A stretch of DNA of 44,229 bases, taken from the NCBI GenBank assembly GCA_012840225.1, contig DULU01000019.1, positions 1 through 44,229 on the forward strand, written 5' to 3'. The stretch is from Bacillota bacterium (lineage in GTDB: Bacteria > Bacillota > Limnochordia > DTU080). This document shows, piece after piece, positions 31,521 to 43,839 of this stretch. The position numbers and the translations under genes were made by a program. Below the pieces are notes generated by a model. It was not told where the DNA came from, did not search any database, and worked only from the letters and a program-made list of their open reading frames with translations. The first letter of the stretch is position 1. Each line of letters opens with the position of its first letter.

Positions 31521-32888
31521 CTACTTCGCCTGGAAAAAGCCGATGCCGAAACCGGTGCCGCTTGTGGCGCCGGGTATGGTGACGTTGTCGAAATTATAGT
31601 ATATGCCCGGATAAATGCCGGAATTAGAAGTGTTATGTATCATTACCTCTTCCGCTATTACTTCCCCATGGATATGAGCATTGGCATTTAATATTATCTT
31701 TTTCGCTATTACTTTCCCATAGATAAAAGCATTGCTGTTTAATGTTACTGTTCGGGTAGGTGCCCAGAGTAAACCGTATATTTTTGCGTTACTGTTGAGC
31801 TCGATAGGATCGGTGTATTCCGGGTCCATAAAGATCAGCACCGGTCTGCTCCCTATATTACCCAACTGGACATTGGCGTTTAGCTGCAAGCCTCTCTGCA
31901 CCACGATGCGGGGCCACAATGACTGATCCTGGCTGCTGGAACCGAAGTCGTCGGTGTGGAAGTTGGAATTAAGTTCCAGCCAACCTTCATGCCAGAATAG
32001 CAGGGCGGTGTTGGCCGACAAGCGCAATCGGGAGTTGCTGTTGATGTTGCTCTGAGTGGTGTGGAAAATGGCTTTTCCGTCCACATTTAAGTCGACATAG
32101 GTATTGGCATTGAGATGAAATTCCGAGGTGCATACAGAAAAATCTCCGGTGACATCAGCATCGATGAAACTGTTGCTGTTTAACTGTAGTCTATTTGCGC
32201 AGATCGTCATATTGCCGGCAGATTGTACAATCATCCGGGTATCGGCGTTCAATTGGTGAGTGCCCATCACCTTGAGCTCACCTGCATTGATAAGATTCAG
32301 TACCCCGCTGGCGGCCACGTTTATATCGGAATATATGGAAGGCGCAGAGATGGTGTAAGGGCTGTAATTAGGCCAGTAGCCGATGCCTAAGGAACCCTGG
32401 GACGGGCCGGTGATGCTGCATGCGCAGGAAGGCCAGCTGATGGGCACAACTCCTCCATCACCGACCTGCGGCGCAGAGCCTCCTTCTCCGCCTTCCACCA
32501 CATTCACCATGGCATGGCGAATGATGGTCCCCTCTTCACCTTGAGAGGCAATCCTCAGCTGGCCGTCCACCGGATCGATATATAGCCAGACCTTATATAC
32601 CGGTTTGGTGCCGGGCGCGCTGACAATGGGCGGTTCATCTTCCGGAACCAAGCCATCTTTAGGTGGTTCGGAAAGGGGTAGGTCCGCACCGGCCCGCAAC
32701 ATGGCCAATGCATGGTTTACACCTGCTTCGGCAGCATAGAAGGCCTGTGCTCTAAATGCTTCCGACACGGTTCTTTTGTTGGTATTCAAGCCGAAGTAGG
32801 TTATGCCGGAAACGATAGTGAACAAACCTATCGATACCACCAAGACGCCTATCAACATGAAACCTTTGTCGTCGCGTTTCCAGTTCAT
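31521..32888 (-). CDS. PilX-like minor pilin with LNSN-repeat domain
   Basis: A 455-aa pilus-related protein. The N-terminus DDKGFMLIGVLVVSIGLFTIV is a class III-type pilin helix, but position 5 after the cleavage glycine is Gly instead of Glu. AQAFYAAEAGVNHALAM is the typical PilX signature. After a linker, residues about 215-430 have some ten LN(S/A)N-type motifs (LNADT, LNSNS, LNANT, INSNS, LNSNF, LNANV, LNSNA twice, LNANA), each followed by a short strand such as IYGLLW or IHGEVIA. This suggests a beta-solenoid, as in the DUF7305 group. Placed at the pilus tip it could be an adhesin; that is inference. AAAGGAG precedes ATG 32888. Confidence 0.8.
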   Translation of the reverse strand: MNWKRDDKGFMLIGVLVVSIGLFTIVSGITYFGLNTNKRTVSEAFRAQAFYAAEAGVNHALAMLRAGADLPLSEPPKDGLVPEDEPPIVSAPGTKPVYKVWLYIDPVDGQLRIASQGEEGTIIRHAMVNVVEGGEGGSAPQVGDGGVVPISWPSCACSITGPSQGSLGIGYWPNYSPYTISAPSIYSDINVAASGVLNLINAGELKVMGTHQLNADTRMIVQSAGNMTICANRLQLNSNSFIDADVTGDFSVCTSEFHLNANTYVDLNVDGKAIFHTTQSNINSNSRLRLSANTALLFWHEGWLELNSNFHTDDFGSSSQDQSLWPRIVVQRGLQLNANVQLGNIGSRPVLIFMDPEYTDPIELNSNAKIYGLLWAPTRTVTLNSNAFIYGKVIAKKIILNANAHIHGEVIAEEVMIHNTSNSGIYPGIYYNFDNVTIPGATSGTGFGIGFFQAK

Positions 32889-33915: not shown

Positions 33916-35865
33916 TCACCGGTTATATCCAACCATCACTCCTGCATTAATATATGCAGCATTAGTGCCGGTTCCCAGCGGTATCCCGATGCGCAGTGTC
34001 GGCTCCAGCACCAGAGGCGGCTTCCTGCTAAAGGGAAGGTTCATTTTCAACCCGACTCCCAGTTCAGCTTCCCAATGGTGGGAGAGCGCACCGCCGGCAC
34101 CCGGAAGATAGTATCCGGCCAGGTAAAGAAAATCGTTTTCATAGCCCAGGCGATACATGGCGCCAAGGCGATACTCATCTTTTGCCGGAGCGGGGGAGGA
34201 GAGAGCGGCGGTATAGGAGGCTACCGCTCCATACCACTGTTCCGTCTCCCCTTGCTTTTTTCCCCCGCCGAATCCCAGCGCTGCGAGCCAATTCGAGTAA
34301 GAAGTGAAATTGGTGGTAATCCCGGTTCTAAAGTAGAGAGGTGCATGCGAGGAGGAAACGCTCTTCTCAGCCTCTGCGGCGGATGCGGGAGAAGCAGGCG
34401 ATGGCTCTCCCTCGGTTTCTGCCAAAGGAGCAGCTTCCTCCTTTTCGCTCTCACCCTTCCTCGCTCCCTCCCCATCTCTTTCCTCTTCCGTCGCCTTGTT
34501 GACGGTCTCAGGCTGAGCCACACCTTGAGCATATGGAGGAGAGCTTGGCGCCGGATTGGCGTTTGCGGCATCTATAATTTCGGACAGCGTACCTGCCTGG
34601 CGGGTATCCTCGATCAGATGCGGGGTGAGGATGATCACTGTTTCCATCTGATCGACGTTGCTCCGGTTCCAGCGGAAGAGCGATCCCACAATTGGCAAGC
34701 TGCTGATGAGGGGGATGCGGGACATGCTTTTCTGCTCTTCTTCCCGGATCAGGCCGCCGATGATGATCGGTTGGCCGTTGTAGACCTGCACAGTGGTTTC
34801 GGCATTGCGGGTGCGCACCACAGGCATGCCCTGCGGGCTCCACTCGAGGATGCTGCTCACTTCCAAGGCTACATTGACGGTGATTTCGTCGGAGGCGGCG
34901 ATGCGGGCGTTGATCTGCAGGCGGATGCCGGCTTCGATATAGGTCATGGTGTCGCCTTCCTCGGCACCACCGCTGATGATCACCGGGACGCGGTCGCCGA
35001 CAAAGATGGGCGCCGTCTCCCCGCTGACCGTGGTGATCAGCGGTTTGGCCAGGAGCTTGGCCTCACCTCTGGTCTCCATGGCATCGATGGCCGACTGTAA
35101 ATTGGACAAAGTCCAGTTGAGCCCGCCGGTGGCGGTGTTGATCGCACCGGTAAGGTCGGGCAGTGTCCAGTTCAGCCCCAGGCGCCTTAACGCATTGTGT
35201 GAAATCTCCTCCACCCGGGCTTCAATCAGCACCTGGCGTCCGGCTTTGTCGAAGAGCTGGAGGAAACCTTCGAAGATCTCAAGATCTTCCTTGCTTCCTA
35301 CGGCGACAAGGCGATTGGATTTCTCGTCACCGCTCAGTTTCAGATTTGGAGCGATGATGGAGGCCATCTCGATCACCTTGGTTACCTCGGCATATTGCAA
35401 GGCGTATACCCGGACAAAACCGTCGTCCGCTCTGGCTTCCGCTTTTCCCGCCGCTTTGGCGAGCGGGGTTACCGAGAGCAGTTGACCGCTGATGGTATAG
35501 GCGGCGCCCACCTGTGCGGCGAGGATGGACAAGGCTTCTTCTATAGTGACATCGTGCAGCAACAGGCTGACCACCCCGTCCACCTCCGGGTCGACGGTGA
35601 CATTCAACCCGGCCATTTGGCCTAAAGCCATGAAGAGGTCTCCGGCTTGGCATTCAAAGACGGATAGTGATTCGATCTTACCCGCCAAAGTAGCTGCGGC
35701 AGCCTCTGCCGGCATAGTGGGTCTTAAGCATATCGCCAGGAGCAATATCAATATTTGCCGGACGAAGGCCGGCCGCCATGATCGCCCAGCTATTATCTGT
35801 TTTGACCATAGCTGGCCATGTGCAGGTTGGCCCCGCGGTTTCGACCGGTGGGCATCAGTTATCAT
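33916..35865 (-). CDS. pilQ: Type IV pilus secretin with C-terminal barrel-like extension
   Basis: A 649-aa secretin, the ring through which pili cross an outer membrane. A long positive n-region and hydrophobic segment (residues 37-55) form the signal. N0/STN domain: 64-133; N1: about 150-207; secretin domain: 210-420, with the signature IPLISSLPIVGSLFRWNRS at 384-402 and the VIILTPHLIED end. Residues 430-508 are a low-complexity acidic linker. Residues 509-649 have alternating aromatic strands (EYRLGAMYRLGYENDFLYLAGYYLP, HHWEAELGVGLKMNLPF) that resemble a small outer-membrane barrel; normal PilQ ends at the secretin domain. It overlaps the preceding gene by ATGA. A secretin implies an outer membrane, unusual for Firmicutes. 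Confidence 0.88.
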   Translation of the reverse strand: MITDAHRSKPRGQPAHGQLWSKQIIAGRSWRPAFVRQILILLLAICLRPTMPAEAAAATLAGKIESLSVFECQAGDLFMALGQMAGLNVTVDPEVDGVVSLLLHDVTIEEALSILAAQVGAAYTISGQLLSVTPLAKAAGKAEARADDGFVRVYALQYAEVTKVIEMASIIAPNLKLSGDEKSNRLVAVGSKEDLEIFEGFLQLFDKAGRQVLIEARVEEISHNALRRLGLNWTLPDLTGAINTATGGLNWTLSNLQSAIDAMETRGEAKLLAKPLITTVSGETAPIFVGDRVPVIISGGAEEGDTMTYIEAGIRLQINARIAASDEITVNVALEVSSILEWSPQGMPVVRTRNAETTVQVYNGQPIIIGGLIREEEQKSMSRIPLISSLPIVGSLFRWNRSNVDQMETVIILTPHLIEDTRQAGTLSEIIDAANANPAPSSPPYAQGVAQPETVNKATEEERDGEGARKGESEKEEAAPLAETEGEPSPASPASAAEAEKSVSSSHAPLYFRTGITTNFTSYSNWLAALGFGGGKKQGETEQWYGAVASYTAALSSPAPAKDEYRLGAMYRLGYENDFLYLAGYYLPGAGGALSHHWEAELGVGLKMNLPFSRKPPLVLEPTLRIGIPLGTGTNAAYINAGVMVGYNR

Positions 35866-37046
35866 TTTGAGCCTCCAACCGGGATGAATTCACGCCGCTC
35901 CCCTAATTTCACCGTCACGCCTTGCGCCGTGACGCTTTCGATGAGCAGCTCACCGATGCTGTCTCCTTGCTTCACCACATGGGAGCGGTTCTCCACGCTC
36001 AGTAAAGCCACGGTATTCGGTCCTTGCTGGATAATACCTCCCAGCCGCACCGGTGGAAAATCATGCCAGGCGAGGAGTTGGGCTGCAGCCGTCAGAACGG
36101 AGGGCTTCCCGGTAGCGGCAATGATCGAGGTGTTCTGTCCGGCTTTGAGCACGAGTTCAGGATAGGCGGCGGATATTATTTCCATGGCATGAGCCACAGG
36201 CAGGTAGCGCACCTGGAAAAGCCGGGTTTCGTCCGTCACGAGACCCACAGATTGAGCCGCCGCCTCGGTCGGTTTTTCTTCTGAAGCCGGTTTTAGCTGC
36301 AGAATGCCTTCCGGCGACACTTCGGCCACCAGTCCGGCTCGCTTCACGATATAATCGAAAGCTTCCCGCGGCGCCATGTCGGAAAGCACGATGGATAATG
36401 TCCCCGGGATCTCCCCGATGATCATGTAGCTGATGCCGGCGTTTATAGCCAGGGTGCGCAGAATAGAGGTGATGGGCTCGTTCTGGAAGTCGAAACGCTG
36501 CTTGGTGGCGACATCATGTTCAGCTATTACGCTCCTGGCCAAAGCTACCTGAGCACTGGTGCCCGTCACCAGGAGCCTGTTTGAACCCTCGTCAACCAAC
36601 ACATTGATTCCCGGTACCGCCGCCAGGACCAAGCTTCTGGCAGTCTGCGGATTGAGGTTGGCCACCTGGATGAAGGCCACTTCCGACTTGACCATGGTCC
36701 TCATGCGTTCGGCTGAAGCGATGGTCAAGGTGTTTCCTTCCAACAGGTAGCTATAACCTGTTACCCGACCCACCTGGTCAAGAGCTTCTTTCAGGCTCAT
36801 GTTGCCCAGCTTGAGGGTGATCTGGCCCCTCACATCGGTGGGATCGGCGATCACGTTCCAGCCGGCTACCTCTCCCAGCACGCGGTAGATGTTGAGAATC
36901 TCCTCGTTGATAAACTCCATCTGCCGCACCGGCATATCCATACCGCCGGTTTCCGCTGCTGCCTGTGCAAAAGCGCCGGCACAGACCAGAAGGCCAATTG
37001 CCAGTGTCATCATCAACATCTGCCAAATTTTTACCACGCTTTTCAT
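35862..37046 (-). CDS. Secretin N-domain protein with PilP/GspC-like C-terminus
   Basis: A 394-aa exported protein without a secretin barrel. A signal peptide (1-32) is followed by N0/STN (42-110, DVRGQITLKLGNMSLKEAL), N1 (122-178, NRLLVTGTSAQVALARSVI), a second N0-like unit (183-252), a second N1-like unit (273-328) and a 58-residue end (334-391): GGIIQQGPNTVALLSVENRSHVVKQGDSIGELLIESV. This last part has the pattern of the PilP/GspC homology region, which links inner-membrane parts to the secretin. The whole may be a periplasmic adaptor extending the secretin channel. GGAGG stands before ATG 37046. It overlaps pilQ by four bases, so the two are coupled. Confidence 0.75.
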   Translation of the reverse strand: MKSVVKIWQMLMMTLAIGLLVCAGAFAQAAAETGGMDMPVRQMEFINEEILNIYRVLGEVAGWNVIADPTDVRGQITLKLGNMSLKEALDQVGRVTGYSYLLEGNTLTIASAERMRTMVKSEVAFIQVANLNPQTARSLVLAAVPGINVLVDEGSNRLLVTGTSAQVALARSVIAEHDVATKQRFDFQNEPITSILRTLAINAGISYMIIGEIPGTLSIVLSDMAPREAFDYIVKRAGLVAEVSPEGILQLKPASEEKPTEAAAQSVGLVTDETRLFQVRYLPVAHAMEIISAAYPELVLKAGQNTSIIAATGKPSVLTAAAQLLAWHDFPPVRLGGIIQQGPNTVALLSVENRSHVVKQGDSIGELLIESVTAQGVTVKLGERREFIPVGGSK

Positions 37047-37049
37047 AAA

Positions 37050-38003
37050 CTAGTTGCCTCCTAATTTTAAAGTGATGCGTTCTCCGGCGATATCAAGGAC
37101 AATTCTTTTCTCTACGGTATCTATTCTGTTGATCTTGGCTCCTTCCAGCTCAGGTAGGATATCGCCTTCGCTCACTGTATAAACACGGCCGTTTACCTGC
37201 AAGTTGGCCAAGGTTTTCCCCGACGCCACCACGATCCCCGTAAGCATGGTCTGCTCCAGTTTTTCGGTTATCAGACGCCCCTTAACCAACTGGACAGTAT
37301 CTGCCGCCGGCTGAAAGGGATCGTTGGCCGGCAGATCGACAGGCTTGGCGGGTCTGGGGTACCAACCTGGCAGTGCTTGGCCACTGTTAACCACGACAGT
37401 TGTTTCCGACATCAACCATACAGTCATCACCATGTGAACATCCAGATGATCAACTTCCATCAATTTGAGGCTCATGTCGGATACATTCTCTTTTAGCACC
37501 GCGCTGAAGCGCACATCTTCAAGCCGCGCCGTGGGCAGGATCTGCGGCAGCTGCACGAGGATTTTCGCCAAACGCTTGTAATCCCCGCTCAGATCGGCGG
37601 TAATCTGCATTCGCCCCACGCCTTCCCCCCACTCCGGCTTGGTATAGCTGATGCGCACCAGGTCAACCAAGTTGTTGGTGGTCAGATTGGAGATTGTCGC
37701 CAGAATAAAAGGCAGATCCGCCTCTCTGGGGTAGAGGCTGATGATATCGTTCACCCGCCTGAGGGTTTCCTGATATTGCGCCTGTGCCGTGGCGTGACGC
37801 CTTTGCAGATCGGCCAGACTGGCCAGGGTAGTGGCCTGGAGTTGCGAGGACTGGCGCAACCTTTTCAGTTCGGCCATGGTCGGCTTGGCATAAAAGAAAG
37901 TGAAGGCGACCACTGCCAAAACATACAAAGCTATAAGTATGATGATGAGGCGAGTGCGCTGGCCGCTTTTGCTATCCTTCAGCATGATCGGCTTGGTGAT
38001 CAT
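37050..38003 (-). CDS. PilO-PilP fusion protein of the pilus alignment complex
   Basis: A 317-aa inner-membrane protein. Residues 19-38 are the single TM helix, 45-90 a coiled coil (MAELKRLRQSSQLQATTLASL), 90-215 the ferredoxin-like PilO domain. From about 225 a proline-rich spacer with NDPFQPA, the phrase common in PilP, leads to LTGIVVASGKTLANLQVNGRVYTVSEGDILPELEGAKINRID, which looks like the PilP homology region. In proteobacteria PilO and PilP are separate. It overlaps pilN by ATGA (38000-38003) and lies three bases before the next gene. Confidence 0.75.
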   Translation of the reverse strand: MITKPIMLKDSKSGQRTRLIIILIALYVLAVVAFTFFYAKPTMAELKRLRQSSQLQATTLASLADLQRRHATAQAQYQETLRRVNDIISLYPREADLPFILATISNLTTNNLVDLVRISYTKPEWGEGVGRMQITADLSGDYKRLAKILVQLPQILPTARLEDVRFSAVLKENVSDMSLKLMEVDHLDVHMVMTVWLMSETTVVVNSGQALPGWYPRPAKPVDLPANDPFQPAADTVQLVKGRLITEKLEQTMLTGIVVASGKTLANLQVNGRVYTVSEGDILPELEGAKINRIDTVEKRIVLDIAGERITLKLGGN

Positions 38004-38560
38004 TTCCCATCACCTTCTGTCGGCAATCCCATTTGAGCGAGGAAATAGGCCAGGCGCACTCCGCTTTGCTCTTCCCAACTTAGTGAGCCCATTTGCACCC
38101 GGTAGGGATCGCGGCCTACGGCGGCCAAAAAGCGGTCGAGCTCGGTGAGGCTCGTGGCATAGCCGCTGATGGGCACGGCGCCCGTCCGGGACAAGGTGAG
38201 ATCCCGCAGCCAGACATGACCTTTTTGCGTGCTTAAGGCCACCCGCTGCAAAAGGTGATACAGATTTATCGGCGGCTCCATTTGCCTTAACTGGCTCTCC
38301 AGCGGCGCCAGCAGGTTTTCCCAGGCCTTGATATCCTTTTCCAGCTGGTTGATGGCCGAACGGAATTGGGAAATGCTGGCCATTGTTTCTTTATAGCCTT
38401 CCATCTGCTCCCTCGTCGACCTCAGCTCCATGTGCAGGTATATACCGGTAAAGGTCATAGCGAAGCCGATGATGATACCGAACACCGCCACAATGGTGAC
38501 CACATTGATAGCTTTGATGGAAGCCCGCTCTTCAGGGGGGAGGAGATTGATGCGGATCAA
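38000..38560 (-). CDS. pilN: Type IV pilus assembly protein PilN
   Basis: A 186-aa bitopic inner-membrane protein. The cytosolic start MIRINLLPPEER holds the INLLP motif that docks into the PilM groove. One TM helix (VVTIVAVFGIIIGFAMTF) follows, then a coiled coil and a small ferredoxin-like domain, as usual for PilN. The start is TTG 38560, overlapping the pilM stop (TTGA); its stop overlaps the PilO-PilP gene. Confidence 0.88.
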   Translation of the reverse strand: MIRINLLPPEERASIKAINVVTIVAVFGIIIGFAMTFTGIYLHMELRSTREQMEGYKETMASISQFRSAINQLEKDIKAWENLLAPLESQLRQMEPPINLYHLLQRVALSTQKGHVWLRDLTLSRTGAVPISGYATSLTELDRFLAAVGRDPYRVQMGSLSWEEQSGVRLAYFLAQMGLPTEGDGK

Positions 38561-39597
38561 GGTTCCGACAACCCCCTCAAAGCCATGCCCATCGCTCCGG
38601 TAAAGAGGGGGGCGATATCCAATATTTCCGGAGGCAGTTTTTCACTGCCCAGGCAAAAAGAGAACGGCTGGGAAATGACCACCGGTATGCCGATCTCTTC
38701 GCTTAAGAGGATGTCCATGCCCTTCTGCATGGTGCCTCCACCGGACAAAAAGATGGTGGTGATCAGATCTCCTATGGATACCACCCTGTGCCTGGCTCTT
38801 AAAAATTCAAGGGTCTGAATGATACCTCCCAGCAGATCTTCAATAACTTTCTGCAACTGAGAGCGCTCCCCAGGCGCCTCCAGCATGAGCTGGTCGATAT
38901 GCTTCTCCCGCTGCAGGCGCTCCACTGCCTCATCGGAGACCTGATAGACACGGGCAACAGTTTCGCACCACCTTCTCATGCCGATCGGCAGCAAGCGATA
39001 TAACACAAAAGTGCCGCTGTCGACTACCAGCACCTGGGTATATTCAGCGCCAATATCCAGGTAGCAGGCCAAACCTTCCCTGGGTTGGCTGCGGGGCAGG
39101 GCGAAAGCCTGCACTTCGAAAACATAAGCCGGCAGGCGGGAGTTGCGCAGCACTTCGGCATATACTCCGAGATGCAGCTTTTGCATCCCTACCACCAGCA
39201 GTTCATGCTCGGAAGGCGAACCAGACGGCAGCTCAAGATAATCGATATGATAGAGCTCTGCTTTTTCAGGCTGTATGTGCAGGGCGGAGGTGAATTCGTG
39301 CATAATCAAGGGGTGTAAGTCGGCTTCCTCGGCGGAGGGGATCCTCACCGGCAGCACATTGATCTGTGCGCCGGCAGCTCCGGCCACCACCATGACGCGG
39401 TCGAGACGCATAGCCGGAGCAAAATTGTCCAGTAGCTCCTCCAGAACCTGGGGCTGCTGGATCACCCCTCTCGAGATCGCACCCGGCGGGACGGGAATAT
39501 AAACCGCCCGTTTTATAATGGGCTGTCGACCGCGCCGCACTTCAACCAGTTTGATGCCGGCATGTCCAAAGTCGATGCCCACAGCCTGATTAGCCAC
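38557..39597 (-). CDS. pilM: Type IV pilus assembly protein PilM
   Basis: An actin-like cytosolic ATP-binding protein of 346 aa that holds PilN and connects it with the motor ATPases. The phosphate loop GIDFGHAGIKLVEV and the later YLDIGAEYTQVLVVD and IFLSGGGTMQKGMDILL are the three nucleotide-site segments of the actin/FtsA fold. The start is GTG 39597 with AGGAGGTG. It overlaps pilN by four bases. Confidence 0.93.
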   Translation of the reverse strand: MANQAVGIDFGHAGIKLVEVRRGRQPIIKRAVYIPVPPGAISRGVIQQPQVLEELLDNFAPAMRLDRVMVVAGAAGAQINVLPVRIPSAEEADLHPLIMHEFTSALHIQPEKAELYHIDYLELPSGSPSEHELLVVGMQKLHLGVYAEVLRNSRLPAYVFEVQAFALPRSQPREGLACYLDIGAEYTQVLVVDSGTFVLYRLLPIGMRRWCETVARVYQVSDEAVERLQREKHIDQLMLEAPGERSQLQKVIEDLLGGIIQTLEFLRARHRVVSIGDLITTIFLSGGGTMQKGMDILLSEEIGIPVVISQPFSFCLGSEKLPPEILDIAPLFTGAMGMALRGLSEP

Positions 39598-39636: not shown

Positions 39637-40863
39637 TTATCCGGTCGGGACCGAGGTGGCCATTTTGAACATGGGCAACACCACCGCAATAGCCAAGAAC
39701 AATACCACTCCCGTCAGCCCGACGATGATCAACGGTTCAAGCAAGGTGGTTAAGGCTTTGATGCTGTAACCGGCTTCCCGGTCGTAATAATCGGCCATCT
39801 GGTTTAGGGTGGTGTCGAGGGAACCGGTCTCCTCCCCAACCGACACCATCTGTACCAGGGCACGGGGAAACACTTTCTCTTTGGCCATGGCGGCAGCCAA
39901 AGAGGAGCCCCGTTCCACTGCCGCTCTCACCTTGGCCACGGCTTCCGCGGCCGGCACATTCATCACGATGCGCTCCACCATGCGCAGAGCTTCCACCATG
40001 GGCACACCGCTTTTGGACAAAAGCGCCAAAGAGCGGCCCATACGGCTAAAAACGAGCTTGGTGACCACCGGACCGATCAGGGGAGCTCTTAAGAGAAACT
40101 GATCTTTAATCCGGTTCCCCTTAGGCGTGACCAGCCATTGGCGCAGAGCGAAGACAAAAGCACCGATGATGGAGAAGATCAGCCACCACCATTTCGTGAG
40201 AAACTTGCTGGCGTCGATGATAAACTGGGTGGTCCAAGGTAGGGGCATATTCATACTTTCAAAGATCGTAACAAAGTTGGGCAAGACGAAGAGCACCAGT
40301 ACGATGATGGCGCCGATGGCCACCACGGTGACCACCATGGGATACATCAGCGCTTCTTTGATTTTGGCCTTCGTCTCCATTTCCCGCTCATAATATTGAG
40401 CCAGGCGGTCCATCACCTCGTTTAAGACACCGGCCATCTCGCCGGCCTCCACCATCTGCACCAGCATGGGGGGAAAGGCTTTATCCTGGGTAGCCAGGGC
40501 CGCTCCCAGGCTGTTTCCGGACATCACTTCCCGCCGGGCATTTTCCAGTCCCTTTTTCAGCCGGACGTCCCGCATCTGATCGGTGACCAAAGCCAAGGCA
40601 TCCATCACCGCCATGCCGCTGGACATCATTACAGAAAACTGGCGGCAAAAGACGGCCAGGGCAGAGACCGGGACCTTGCCCATAGGTTCGTTGAGGCGCT
40701 GCCAGAGGGTTTTCTGCCGGCTCTGGCGCTGCACGGAGAGGACAATATAACCCTGATTGCGGAGCCGGTTGATAATACTGCCTTGGTTGTCGCCGGCAAT
40801 GGAACCTTGCAGCAACTGGCCGCTGCGGGTTTTTACTTTATATTGCCAATACTGTTGAGCCAT
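39637..40863 (-). CDS. pilC: Type IV pilus inner-membrane platform protein PilC
   Basis: Platform protein of 408 aa with two T2SSF domains: the first opening ALAVFCRQFSVMMSSGMAVMDALALV, the second RMGRSLALLSKSGVPMVEALRMVE. Three main hydrophobic segments are seen (about 170-190, 220-240 and near 380). Each domain has the MVEAGE / MVSVGEETGSLD motif typical of the family. PilC is turned by PilB during extension and by PilT during retraction. It lies between pilT and pilM, 39 bases before the latter. Confidence 0.95.
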   Translation of the reverse strand: MAQQYWQYKVKTRSGQLLQGSIAGDNQGSIINRLRNQGYIVLSVQRQSRQKTLWQRLNEPMGKVPVSALAVFCRQFSVMMSSGMAVMDALALVTDQMRDVRLKKGLENARREVMSGNSLGAALATQDKAFPPMLVQMVEAGEMAGVLNEVMDRLAQYYEREMETKAKIKEALMYPMVVTVVAIGAIIVLVLFVLPNFVTIFESMNMPLPWTTQFIIDASKFLTKWWWLIFSIIGAFVFALRQWLVTPKGNRIKDQFLLRAPLIGPVVTKLVFSRMGRSLALLSKSGVPMVEALRMVERIVMNVPAAEAVAKVRAAVERGSSLAAAMAKEKVFPRALVQMVSVGEETGSLDTTLNQMADYYDREAGYSIKALTTLLEPLIIVGLTGVVLFLAIAVVLPMFKMATSVPTG

Positions 40864-40913: not shown

Positions 40914-41960
40914 CTATAACCGCCGCCGCCACCGCAGTTCTTCAGGATCCACCAGACCCTGGTTCACCAGCTGTTCCAACGAAGATTCCATGGTCTGCAT
41001 GCCGAAGCGGGCGCCGGTTTCGATGGCGGCGGGGATCTGGTGCGTCTTGCCTTCGCGTATCAAATTGCGAATAGCGGTGGTACCTATCAGCACTTCCACC
41101 GCCGGCACCATGCGCTTGCCGTCGACGGTTCTTAATAGCTGTTGCGATATGACGGCTTGCAGCACGCCGGCCAACTGCACTCGCACCTGCTGTTGCTGGT
41201 GCGGAGGGAAGACATCGATGATGCGATCGATGGTCTGGGCGCCACCGCGGGTGTGCAGGGTGGACAAAACCAGGTGGCCGGTTTCGGCGGCGATGAGTGC
41301 GGTGCTGATAGTCTCCAGATCCCTCATTTCTCCCACTAAAATCACGTCAGGATCCGCCCGCAGAGCCGCTTTCAGCGCCGAGGCATATGAAGTGGTGTCG
41401 CTTCCCACTTCCCGCTGGTTGACGATGCATTTGGCGTGCCGGTGGATATATTCAATGGGGTCCTCCAGGGTGATGATCACCCCGTGACGCTGGTGATTTA
41501 TCACGTCGATCATGGCGGCCAGAGTGGTGGATTTTCCGCTCCCTGTAGGACCGGTCACCAGGATCAAACCGTCGCGCCTGTCGCATAAATCACGCACCAC
41601 CGGCGGCAAACCCAACTCCTCCAGTGGCAGCACCTGTGGGGATATAAGGCGAATGGCCAACCCATAGCTGCCGCGCTGTCTGAAAGCCGTGCAGCGGAAG
41701 CGGCCCACCTGTCCCAGGCTGTAGGAAAAATCGAGTTCGCCCGCCTGTTCCAATTCCGACCATTTGTCATCCTTAACTAACTGGTGGATCAACGCCTCGG
41801 TCATTTCGGGTCGCAACCGCTCCATGTTCTCCATGGGCACCAAATCGCCCCTGATGCGCAGCACAGGAGGGATGCCCACGGTGATATGTAGATCTGAAGC
41901 TTTTGCCTCCAGCGCCTTACGTAATAAATCATCGATGGTATATGTTGTAGTATAAAGCAT
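40914..41960 (-). CDS. pilT: Pilus retraction ATPase PilT
   Basis: A hexameric secretion ATPase of 348 aa. Walker A is GPTGSGKST (137-145), followed by TLEDPIEYIH, LRADPDVILVGEMRDLET (Walker B) and GHLVLSTLHT. AIRNLIREGKTHQI, the C-terminal PilT motif, separates it from PilB. It depolymerises the fibre for twitching and DNA uptake. It is encoded between pilB and pilC, so retraction genes are expressed with assembly genes. Confidence 0.95.
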   Translation of the reverse strand: MLYTTTYTIDDLLRKALEAKASDLHITVGIPPVLRIRGDLVPMENMERLRPEMTEALIHQLVKDDKWSELEQAGELDFSYSLGQVGRFRCTAFRQRGSYGLAIRLISPQVLPLEELGLPPVVRDLCDRRDGLILVTGPTGSGKSTTLAAMIDVINHQRHGVIITLEDPIEYIHRHAKCIVNQREVGSDTTSYASALKAALRADPDVILVGEMRDLETISTALIAAETGHLVLSTLHTRGGAQTIDRIIDVFPPHQQQQVRVQLAGVLQAVISQQLLRTVDGKRMVPAVEVLIGTTAIRNLIREGKTHQIPAAIETGARFGMQTMESSLEQLVNQGLVDPEELRWRRRL

Positions 41961-42045: not shown

Positions 42046-43839
42046 TTAGACGGCCTTTATTTCTGTGACCGGCATATCATCGGCCAGCTGCCCGTTGGCC
42101 TCCGTGTCGTCCGGGTGACGGCCGCCTTTTATGTTCATCTCGTCTTCCAGCATGTCGACGGAGAACACCGTGCGCCACAGTTCCTCAAGGGTAGTGTAGC
42201 CCTCCAGCACCCTTTGCAGACCGCGTTCCGCCATAGGTATAAAGCCCTCTTCCATGGCGATTTCCAGCAGGCGGGCTTCATTAGCCCGTTCGGCGATGGC
42301 CGCCCTGAGACGCTTGGTCACAATCAGCACTTCCTCGATCGGCAGGCGGCCTTTATAGCCGGTCTCTTTGCATTGCGGGCAGCCTTTACCCCGCCACAGA
42401 TGAGTGACGTTGTGCCCAGTCTTTTTGAGAAAGGCCAGCTCGGCAGGATCGGTCACCTCATACTGTTCTTTGCATTCCGGACAGATGCGCCGGACCAGTC
42501 TCTGGGCGACCACGCCTAAGAGGGTGGCGGCGACCATGAAAGGTTCGATGCCCATATCGATGAGCCGGGCTAAGCTGCTGCAGGCGGAGTTGGTGTGCAA
42601 AGTGGACAGTACCAGGTGACCAGTAAGCGCGGCTCTGACCGCGATTTCCGCCGTTTCCAGGTCGCGCACCTCGCCCACCATCACCACTTCCGGGTCCTGA
42701 CGCAACACGGCTCGCAGGCTCGTGGCAAAATCCAGGCCGATTTTGTGATTCACCTGCACCTGGTTTAGACCCTCAATGCGGTATTCGACGGGATCCTCAA
42801 CGGTGATGATGTTTTTGTCCGGAGTGTTGAGGGCGTTTAAAAAGGCGTATTGGGTGGTGGTCTTGCCGCTCCCTGTAGGTCCGGTCACCAAAATCAATCC
42901 TTGAGGATTTTTGATCATGGCTTTCATTTCCGCCACCGATTCCGGCGCAAACCCCACTTCATCAAGCTGGAAAACGGTGGCGCTTTTATCGAGGATACGG
43001 ATGACGATCTTCTCCCCGTAGATGGTGGGCAACACCGAGAGCCGCATATCCACTTCCCGCCCGTCTTGCTCCAGGCGAATTTTGAAGCGCCCGTCCTGCG
43101 GCCGACGGCGCTCGGTGATGTCCAGATTGGAGATCACCTTGATGCGGGTGGTGAGATCGCGCTGGATATGCTTCGGCAACACCATCTCCTGGCGGAGGAT
43201 GCCGTCGATGCGGAAGCGCACGATCACATTTTTCTCCCGCGGTTCGATATGTATGTCGCTAGCCCTGTCGTTCACGGCTTGGGCCAGGATCAGCTGGACC
43301 ACTTTCACGCCCGGCGATTCGGCGATATTATCTGTTTGTAGAGGTTCCGGTTCTTCTTCCTTTTCTTCCTCTATTTCCGAGATGATGGTCTGGGCCATGG
43401 AAGCCAGATTAAAGGACCTGTTGTAAGCCAGCTTAATCTCGTCGGCGGTAGCCACGGCGGGCTCTACCCGCATACCGGTGGCCCGGCTCACTTTGTCCAT
43501 GGCATAAAAATCCAGTGGGTCGACCATGGCCAAGATGAGAGTGTCGCCCTGGCGCTTGAGAGGATAGAATTGGCCTTCCCGCAGGAGTTCAGCAGGCACA
43601 AGGAGCGCCAAATTGGGGTCGCGGCCGGCTTCTGCCCAATTGGCTCTCGGGATCTTCAGCTGTTCGGCGAGAACATCGGCCATCACGCTTGGCTTGACAA
43701 ACCCGAGTTCGGACAGGACAGTGCCCAGCGGCTTTTGCGTAACCCTTTGGCGCTCCAGAGCCTGATTCAGCTGTTCCTGCGTCAGAACCCCCCGATTAAG
43801 TAGAATATCGCCTAAACGGCGCCGGCGGGTGAGGGACAT
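42046..43839 (-). CDS. pilB: Pilus assembly ATPase PilB with MshEN c-di-GMP-binding domain
   Basis: The extension motor, 597 aa. Residues 8-60 contain two 24-residue MshEN motifs separated by five residues (RLGDILLNRGVLTQEQLNQALERQ and the unit after RVTQK, with Met for one Leu); MshEN domains of this form bind cyclic di-GMP. The ATPase core has Walker A GPTGSGKTT (320-328), VEDPVEYR, QDPEVVMVGEVRDLET and GHLVLSTLHT. The zinc finger is C453, C456, C487, C490. ATG 43839 follows AAGGAG, located in the end of the pilin gene. Pilus extension is therefore likely tuned by c-di-GMP. Confidence 0.95.
   Translation of the reverse strand: MSLTRRRRLGDILLNRGVLTQEQLNQALERQRVTQKPLGTVLSELGFVKPSVMADVLAEQLKIPRANWAEAGRDPNLALLVPAELLREGQFYPLKRQGDTLILAMVDPLDFYAMDKVSRATGMRVEPAVATADEIKLAYNRSFNLASMAQTIISEIEEEKEEEPEPLQTDNIAESPGVKVVQLILAQAVNDRASDIHIEPREKNVIVRFRIDGILRQEMVLPKHIQRDLTTRIKVISNLDITERRRPQDGRFKIRLEQDGREVDMRLSVLPTIYGEKIVIRILDKSATVFQLDEVGFAPESVAEMKAMIKNPQGLILVTGPTGSGKTTTQYAFLNALNTPDKNIITVEDPVEYRIEGLNQVQVNHKIGLDFATSLRAVLRQDPEVVMVGEVRDLETAEIAVRAALTGHLVLSTLHTNSACSSLARLIDMGIEPFMVAATLLGVVAQRLVRRICPECKEQYEVTDPAELAFLKKTGHNVTHLWRGKGCPQCKETGYKGRLPIEEVLIVTKRLRAAIAERANEARLLEIAMEEGFIPMAERGLQRVLEGYTTLEELWRTVFSVDMLEDEMNIKGGRHPDDTEANGQLADDMPVTEIKAV

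Follow-up and report, generated by a model that had tools for sequence, protein, structure and literature searches.

The window analysed here, a 44,229-nucleotide stretch of DNA from a bacterium of the class Limnochordia (phylum Bacillota), carries a type IV pilus locus on its minus strand. PilB, PilT, PilC, PilM, PilN, PilO and the secretin PilQ are encoded together with prepilin-like genes at this single locus, in the order pilB, pilT, pilC, pilM, pilN, pilO-HR, adaptor, pilQ, followed by the prepilin-like genes (Table 1). HR denotes the PilP/GspC homology region, the docking domain between the inner-membrane base and the secretin. How the inner-membrane platform is coupled to the outer-membrane secretin is known, for type IV pili and for type II secretion, from few models with one PilP or GspC. 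An earlier sequence-only reading of this DNA had proposed the order pilM-pilN-pilOP-adaptor-pilQ with 4-base overlaps at three of the four junctions, and the coordinates agree: pilM and pilN share TTGA (38557-38560), pilN and pilO share ATGA (38000-38003), adaptor and pilQ share ATGA (35862-35865), and a 3-base gap separates pilO-HR from the adaptor. At the end of the operon, a prepilin-like protein (31521-32888, minus strand) has a C-terminal region with weak matches to DUF7305, ice-binding-like adhesive and bactofilin domains, making it a possible pilus-tip adhesin.

Table 1 Genes and domains of the pilus locus, with window positions and the basis of each assignment.
Feature	Position	Strand	Basis
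pilB, extension ATPase	42046-43839	-	Sequence and position; kept in relatives' operon
pilT, retraction ATPase	40914-41960	-	Sequence and position; kept in relatives' operon
pilC, platform protein	39637-40863	-	T2SSF, E 4e-61
pilM	38557-39597	-	PilM_2, E 1e-18
pilN, TTG start	38000-38560	-	Weak PilN Pfam match, position, conservation in relatives
pilO-HR fusion gene, 317 aa	37050-38003	-	Pfam PilO, TIGR03021, PilP/GspC structures by profile
PilO domain, residues 51-178, preceded by TM segment at ~17-40	37470-37853	-	PF04350, E 6e-5; solved PilO by family profile
HR of PilO, residues 245-316	37056-37271	-	TIGR03021 at 248-294; tail profile matches PilP and GspC structures
Adaptor gene: signal peptide, N0-N1-N0-N1, C-terminal HR	35862-37046	-	Pfam, N0N1 profile, AlphaFold2
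Adaptor probable cleavable signal peptide, residues 1-31, no lipobox	36954-37046	-	Inspection; helix 3-29 in model
Adaptor first N0, residues 42-112	36711-36923	-	STN, E 2e-14; model
Adaptor first N1, residues 121-184	36495-36686	-	Secretin_N, E 7e-10; model
Adaptor second N0, residues 185-255	36282-36494	-	N0N1 profile match 185-332; model
Adaptor second N1, residues 270-330	36057-36239	-	N0N1 profile; model
Adaptor C-terminal HR, residues 332-391	35874-36053	-	HHalign 99% to PilO tail and PilP profile; six strands, pLDDT ~90
pilQ: one N0-N1, secretin domain, disordered linker, barrel-like C-terminal domain	33916-35865	-	Secretin PF00263, E 9e-38; single N0N1 by profile
Last 145 residues of PilQ, predicted outer-membrane barrel of eight strands	33919-34353	-	AlphaFold2 pLDDT 70; Foldseek

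The 37050-38003 product has the N-terminal transmembrane (TM) segment, coiled coil and periplasmic domain of the PilO family, and its match to the PilO Pfam model PF04350 (E 6e-5) lies above the cut-off. The pilP_fam model TIGR03021 matched residues 248-294 (E 7e-5), below its curated cut-off. A profile of 18 homologues matched solved PilO over its first part (E 2e-11 and 8e-8) and PilP and GspC over its tail. When a profile of the tail (20 PilO homologues) was searched against the PDB, the eight best matches were four PilP structures (2ivw, 4av2_M, 2y4x and 2lc4; E 5e-6 to 4e-5, best 4.5e-6) and four GspC structures (7oio, 3oss, 2lnv and 6hcg_e; E 2e-4 to 4e-3). The gene thus encodes PilO joined to a PilP-type end, as had been proposed from the sequence.

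The adjacent 35862-37046 product, here called the adaptor, had been described as an N0-N1-N0-N1 array followed by an HR and lacking a secretin barrel, and this description held. Pfam placed STN at residues 63-111 (E 2e-14) and Secretin_N at 126-183 (E 7e-10), and an N0N1 profile built from relatives identified residues 185-332 as a second N0-N1 copy (E 1.7e-11). AlphaFold2 models of the adaptor, run with four relatives (mean pLDDT 79), showed N0 and N1 folds alternating at residues 43-111, 122-177, 184-253 and 273-328, followed by a tail of six strands at 333-389 with pLDDT near 90; the low pTM of 0.32 means that the mutual placement of these domains is not predicted. Foldseek searches with the model returned secretin N-domain structures. 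The adaptor therefore has the periplasmic N0/N1 domains of a secretin without the barrel domain PF00263, which was absent from it and gave no Pfam match in the 16 adaptor-family members scanned.

We then compared the two tails with each other and with PilP. Used alone against PDB sequences, the adaptor-tail profile gave no significant match (best, a dUTPase, E 0.05). HHalign aligned it to the PilO-tail profile with a probability of 99.1% over 72 columns, and in a repeat of this comparison the score was 88, against at most 17 in 30 column-shuffled controls. Against a profile of the separate PilPs of other Bacillota, the adaptor tail reached 99.4% and the PilO tail 98.9%, and plain BLAST matched PilO tail to adaptor tail in several relatives. 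The Pfam PilP and T2SSC models had no match over the whole genome, the sequences being too divergent for these single models. The sequence-only reading had taken both tails to be PilP/GspC-like, naming a lack of such matches as half of what would speak against it and a profile search as the check. That search linked the PilO tail directly to PilP and GspC structures, whereas the adaptor tail is linked through profile comparison. Both products therefore end in a PilP/GspC HR, carried by PilO and by an N0-N1 array, and neither is a separate lipoprotein or a TM-anchored linker with an HR only. A tree of the HRs (76 columns) does not decide which of them descends from PilP. With most PilPs of other Bacillota, the adaptor HR scores higher than its counterpart on PilO, likewise in the profile comparison, which only hints that the adaptor HR is the one of PilP descent.

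The adaptor gene occupies the operon slot of pilP, between pilO and pilQ. In each of the 22 adaptors examined, the N terminus is a hydrophobic stretch that looks like a cleavable signal peptide, with N0 closely after it; none of the 22 has a lipobox, and no TM anchor was detected in the adaptor sequence. A signal peptide without a lipobox suggests that the adaptor is probably soluble or ring-forming and that membrane anchorage of the HR has probably shifted to PilO. Across three pairs of relatives, dN/dS of the adaptor and pilO-HR genes was 0.08-0.64, indicating purifying selection on both.

Limnochordia are diderm, as electron microscopy of Geochorda and Carboxydochorda has shown (PMC11456536). 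Among 73 Limnochordia genomes, the adaptor, either full or cut by a contig end, was found in 33, and pilM in the same 33; this count includes one genome with a pilM fragment (G048) and one with an adaptor fragment (G453) at a contig end. Neither gene was found in the remaining 40, many of which carry other secretin-like genes of weak match. The long form of the adaptor, N0-N1-N0-N1-HR, is present in nine genomes including that of the window, whereas most relatives have a short form, N0-N1-N1-HR, of ~305-320 aa. The duplicated N0-N1-N0-N1 array of the sequence-only reading is therefore real in the window and its long-form relatives but not general. The combination of PilO-HR and adaptor is a class trait of Limnochordia and is not peculiar to the window's genome.

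Confinement to the class holds within a sample of the phylum. Among 398 sampled genomes, a full PilO-HR match was found in the operon-bearing class members and in G306, and a partial one in G072. We also inspected 20 secretin loci from the rest of the phylum. In 17 of them, pilQ is preceded by a separate HR protein, nearly always behind an unfused PilO; the exceptions are G306, G072 (PilO-HR and no adaptor) and G256 (no PilMNOP beside pilQ). By inspection, most PilPs of these other Bacillota begin with a TM segment and two with a signal peptide. The departure from the usual separate PilP is thus conserved across Limnochordia, and other Bacillota mostly keep the separate protein.

Two of these exceptions deserve description. 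G306, a genome placed outside the class, carries a Limnochordia-type pil operon on one 9.6-kb contig (contig 110, L088). Its genus-mate G283 has an ordinary M-N-O-P-Q operon; because the G306 genes resemble those of Limnochordia while genus-mates have the ordinary form, we attribute this case to misbinning or transfer. In G072, a PilO-HR fusion lies immediately before pilQ (L098:4229-6738, plus strand) with no separate PilP or adaptor, and pilB, pilT and pilC come next; this is perhaps an independent or an intermediate fusion.

The Limnochordia locus shares PilM, PilN, PilO, a PilP-type HR and a PilQ with N0-N1, in the order M-N-O-(HR)-Q, with the proteobacterial type IVa PilMNOPQ systems of Neisseria, Pseudomonas and Myxococcus. 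Proteobacterial PilP is a single inner-membrane lipoprotein in its own right and has an unstructured linker (PMC3441751), whereas, judging from the sequences, the Limnochordia HRs reside on PilO and on a probably soluble N-domain protein that lacks a lipobox. The pilM-N-O-P-Q loci of other Bacillota encode, in the same place before pilQ, an HR homologous to both Limnochordia HRs, but their PilO is unfused and their PilP is separate, mostly TM-anchored and devoid of N0-N1. In Thermus thermophilus, the gene between pilO and pilQ encodes PilW, which has a C-terminal GspC-like HR and is thought to bridge PilQ and PilMNO; unlike the adaptor, PilW is described as a flexible linker protein, and neither secretin N domains nor an HR on PilO is reported for that system (PMC13039148). 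Type II GspC and GspB/OutB offer membrane-anchored HRs that bind the secretin N0, with two HR proteins per secretin (PMC9239104). GspB/OutB has a single TM and a periplasmic HR; the adaptor has a signal peptide in place of the TM and also carries secretin N domains, and in the PilO fusion a PilO domain separates TM and HR. No account of this arrangement turned up in the open-access papers that our search covered. The architecture is real, conserved in the class and different from the PilP arrangements found in those papers.

To trace the origin of the adaptor array, we compared it with PilQ, which has a single N0-N1 unit in the window and N0-N1-N0-N1 in many relatives. The window adaptor and window PilQ are ~26% identical (E 1.7e-10). 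In a tree of N0N1 modules, which has weak deep forks and long branches, the second modules of adaptors and PilQs cluster together (98/95), apart from nearly all first modules; most first modules of the class adaptors and PilQs also cluster (96/80), and one first module (L033) falls inside the second-module group. The adaptor array was probably copied from PilQ, because PilQ of many relatives has the same tandem organization. The simplest reading of these sequence relationships is a class-level duplication of PilQ's tandem N0N1-N0N1, in which the copy joined the HR of the neighbouring pilP and a second HR joined PilO. On this reading, the window PilQ would later have lost one N0N1 and the short adaptors their second N0; the order of duplication and loss is not settled, because the deep forks are weak and the branches long.

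In PilQ of the window and of several long-form relatives, the secretin domain and a linker that looks disordered are followed by a C-terminal tail of ~130-145 residues with many strand-like segments, often ending in an aromatic residue. The C-terminal segment of the window PilQ matched no Pfam family, and the leading Foldseek matches of its model were outer-membrane barrels (the OprF barrel, PagL and OmpX; best E 1.8e-3). Similar tails end PilQ in L031, L033, L035, L037 and L038. Such a predicted barrel anchor on a secretin may be of interest in its own right.

How might these parts bridge the periplasm? We favour a reading, to which we give an even chance, in which the single connector PilP of the Limnochordia bridge has been replaced by two HR-bearing proteins forming a relay from PilO-HR through the adaptor to PilQ. 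It builds on the directly observed domain content, gene order, co-occurrence with the operon, purifying selection and lack of a lipobox or TM anchor in the adaptor. The HR of PilP binds the N0 of PilQ through edge strands, and the HR of GspC binds the N0 of GspD likewise (PMC3441751). OutB and OutC are two HR proteins that serve one secretin (PMC9239104). Limnochordia have two HRs and, to pair with them, N0 domains of two or more kinds. We infer the HR-N0 contacts of the relay from PilP-PilQ, GspC-GspD and OutB-OutD, and likewise infer its stoichiometry and ring formation. The HR fused to PilO would be the inner-membrane handle, so that the PilM-PilN-PilO platform would carry its own secretin dock, like GspC in type II secretion. 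By analogy with the known pairs, PilO-HR would grip an adaptor N0 and the adaptor HR would grip the N0 of PilQ, and the adaptor may form an intermediate collar or ring that lengthens the PilQ vestibule across the periplasm. The relay is favoured because every domain gets used and every known type of contact is kept. Pointing against it, the short adaptor has one N0 only; a second N0 is therefore not essential, and PilO-HR could equally bind the N0 of PilQ directly, without an adaptor N0. In a more specific and only tentative form of the relay, the adaptor would make its own stacked periplasmic ring under PilQ. HR-N0 contacts would then join the two polypeptides into one pilus conduit, the two-layer channel that the sequence-only reading had raised as a possibility, and PilO-HR would complete the chain on the inner-membrane side. 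Together with the predicted PilQ barrel, such a channel would let the pilus exit through a machine anchored in a different way, which might lack both PilP and pilotin lipoproteins.

The main rival to the relay places both HRs, that of PilO and that of the adaptor, on PilQ, where they would contact N0, or N0 together with N1, at different stages; the adaptor would then serve as a PilQ scaffold or assembly factor and not as a channel layer. OutB and OutC offer a precedent, since their HRs both contact OutD with differing affinities and sites, but OutB is membrane-anchored by a single TM (PMC9239104) and the adaptor is not. The PilO and adaptor HRs are indeed homologous, yet this model leaves no role for the conserved N0-N1 array, and we consider it rather unlikely. 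Alternatively, the adaptor could sit inside the PilQ ring, its N domains intercalating with those of PilQ and its HR capping them, in a mixed ring in place of two layers. Close kinship of the adaptor modules with same-class PilQ modules would suit this idea, which is nonetheless improbable given how far the module sequences have diverged (~26% identity in the window); we know of no case in which secretin N domains mix with those of another protein in one ring. N domains without a barrel might also suggest a secretin gene that has been truncated and is decaying. This pseudogene reading is extremely improbable and was rejected as contradicted by conservation and selection: no internal stop occurs among the matches listed for the class, dN/dS is 0.48 in one of the three pairs and well below 1 in the other two, and a specific HR stands at the barrel's expected place.

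Limnochordia show that PilO can acquire the HR module and that the entrance domains of a secretin can be detached and combined anew with an HR. The arrangement is a natural experiment on the question of which HR-N0 contacts are indispensable, and it bears on how pili cross the envelope of the early-branching diderm Bacillota, which are central to the debate on diderm and monoderm bacteria.

Finally, two further PilQ variants were observed in the same phylum. In G171 (L106:371-5095, minus strand), the secretin domain of a 1574-aa PilQ is preceded by a single N0 and some fourteen N1-like repeats, which make an extremely long periplasmic vestibule. In G270 (L100:3663-5656, minus strand), two genes that overlap by 4 bases seem to divide PilQ between them, one encoding a 283-aa protein with N0-N1 and the other a 381-aa protein with the secretin domain; this is either a natural two-gene secretin or a frameshift.
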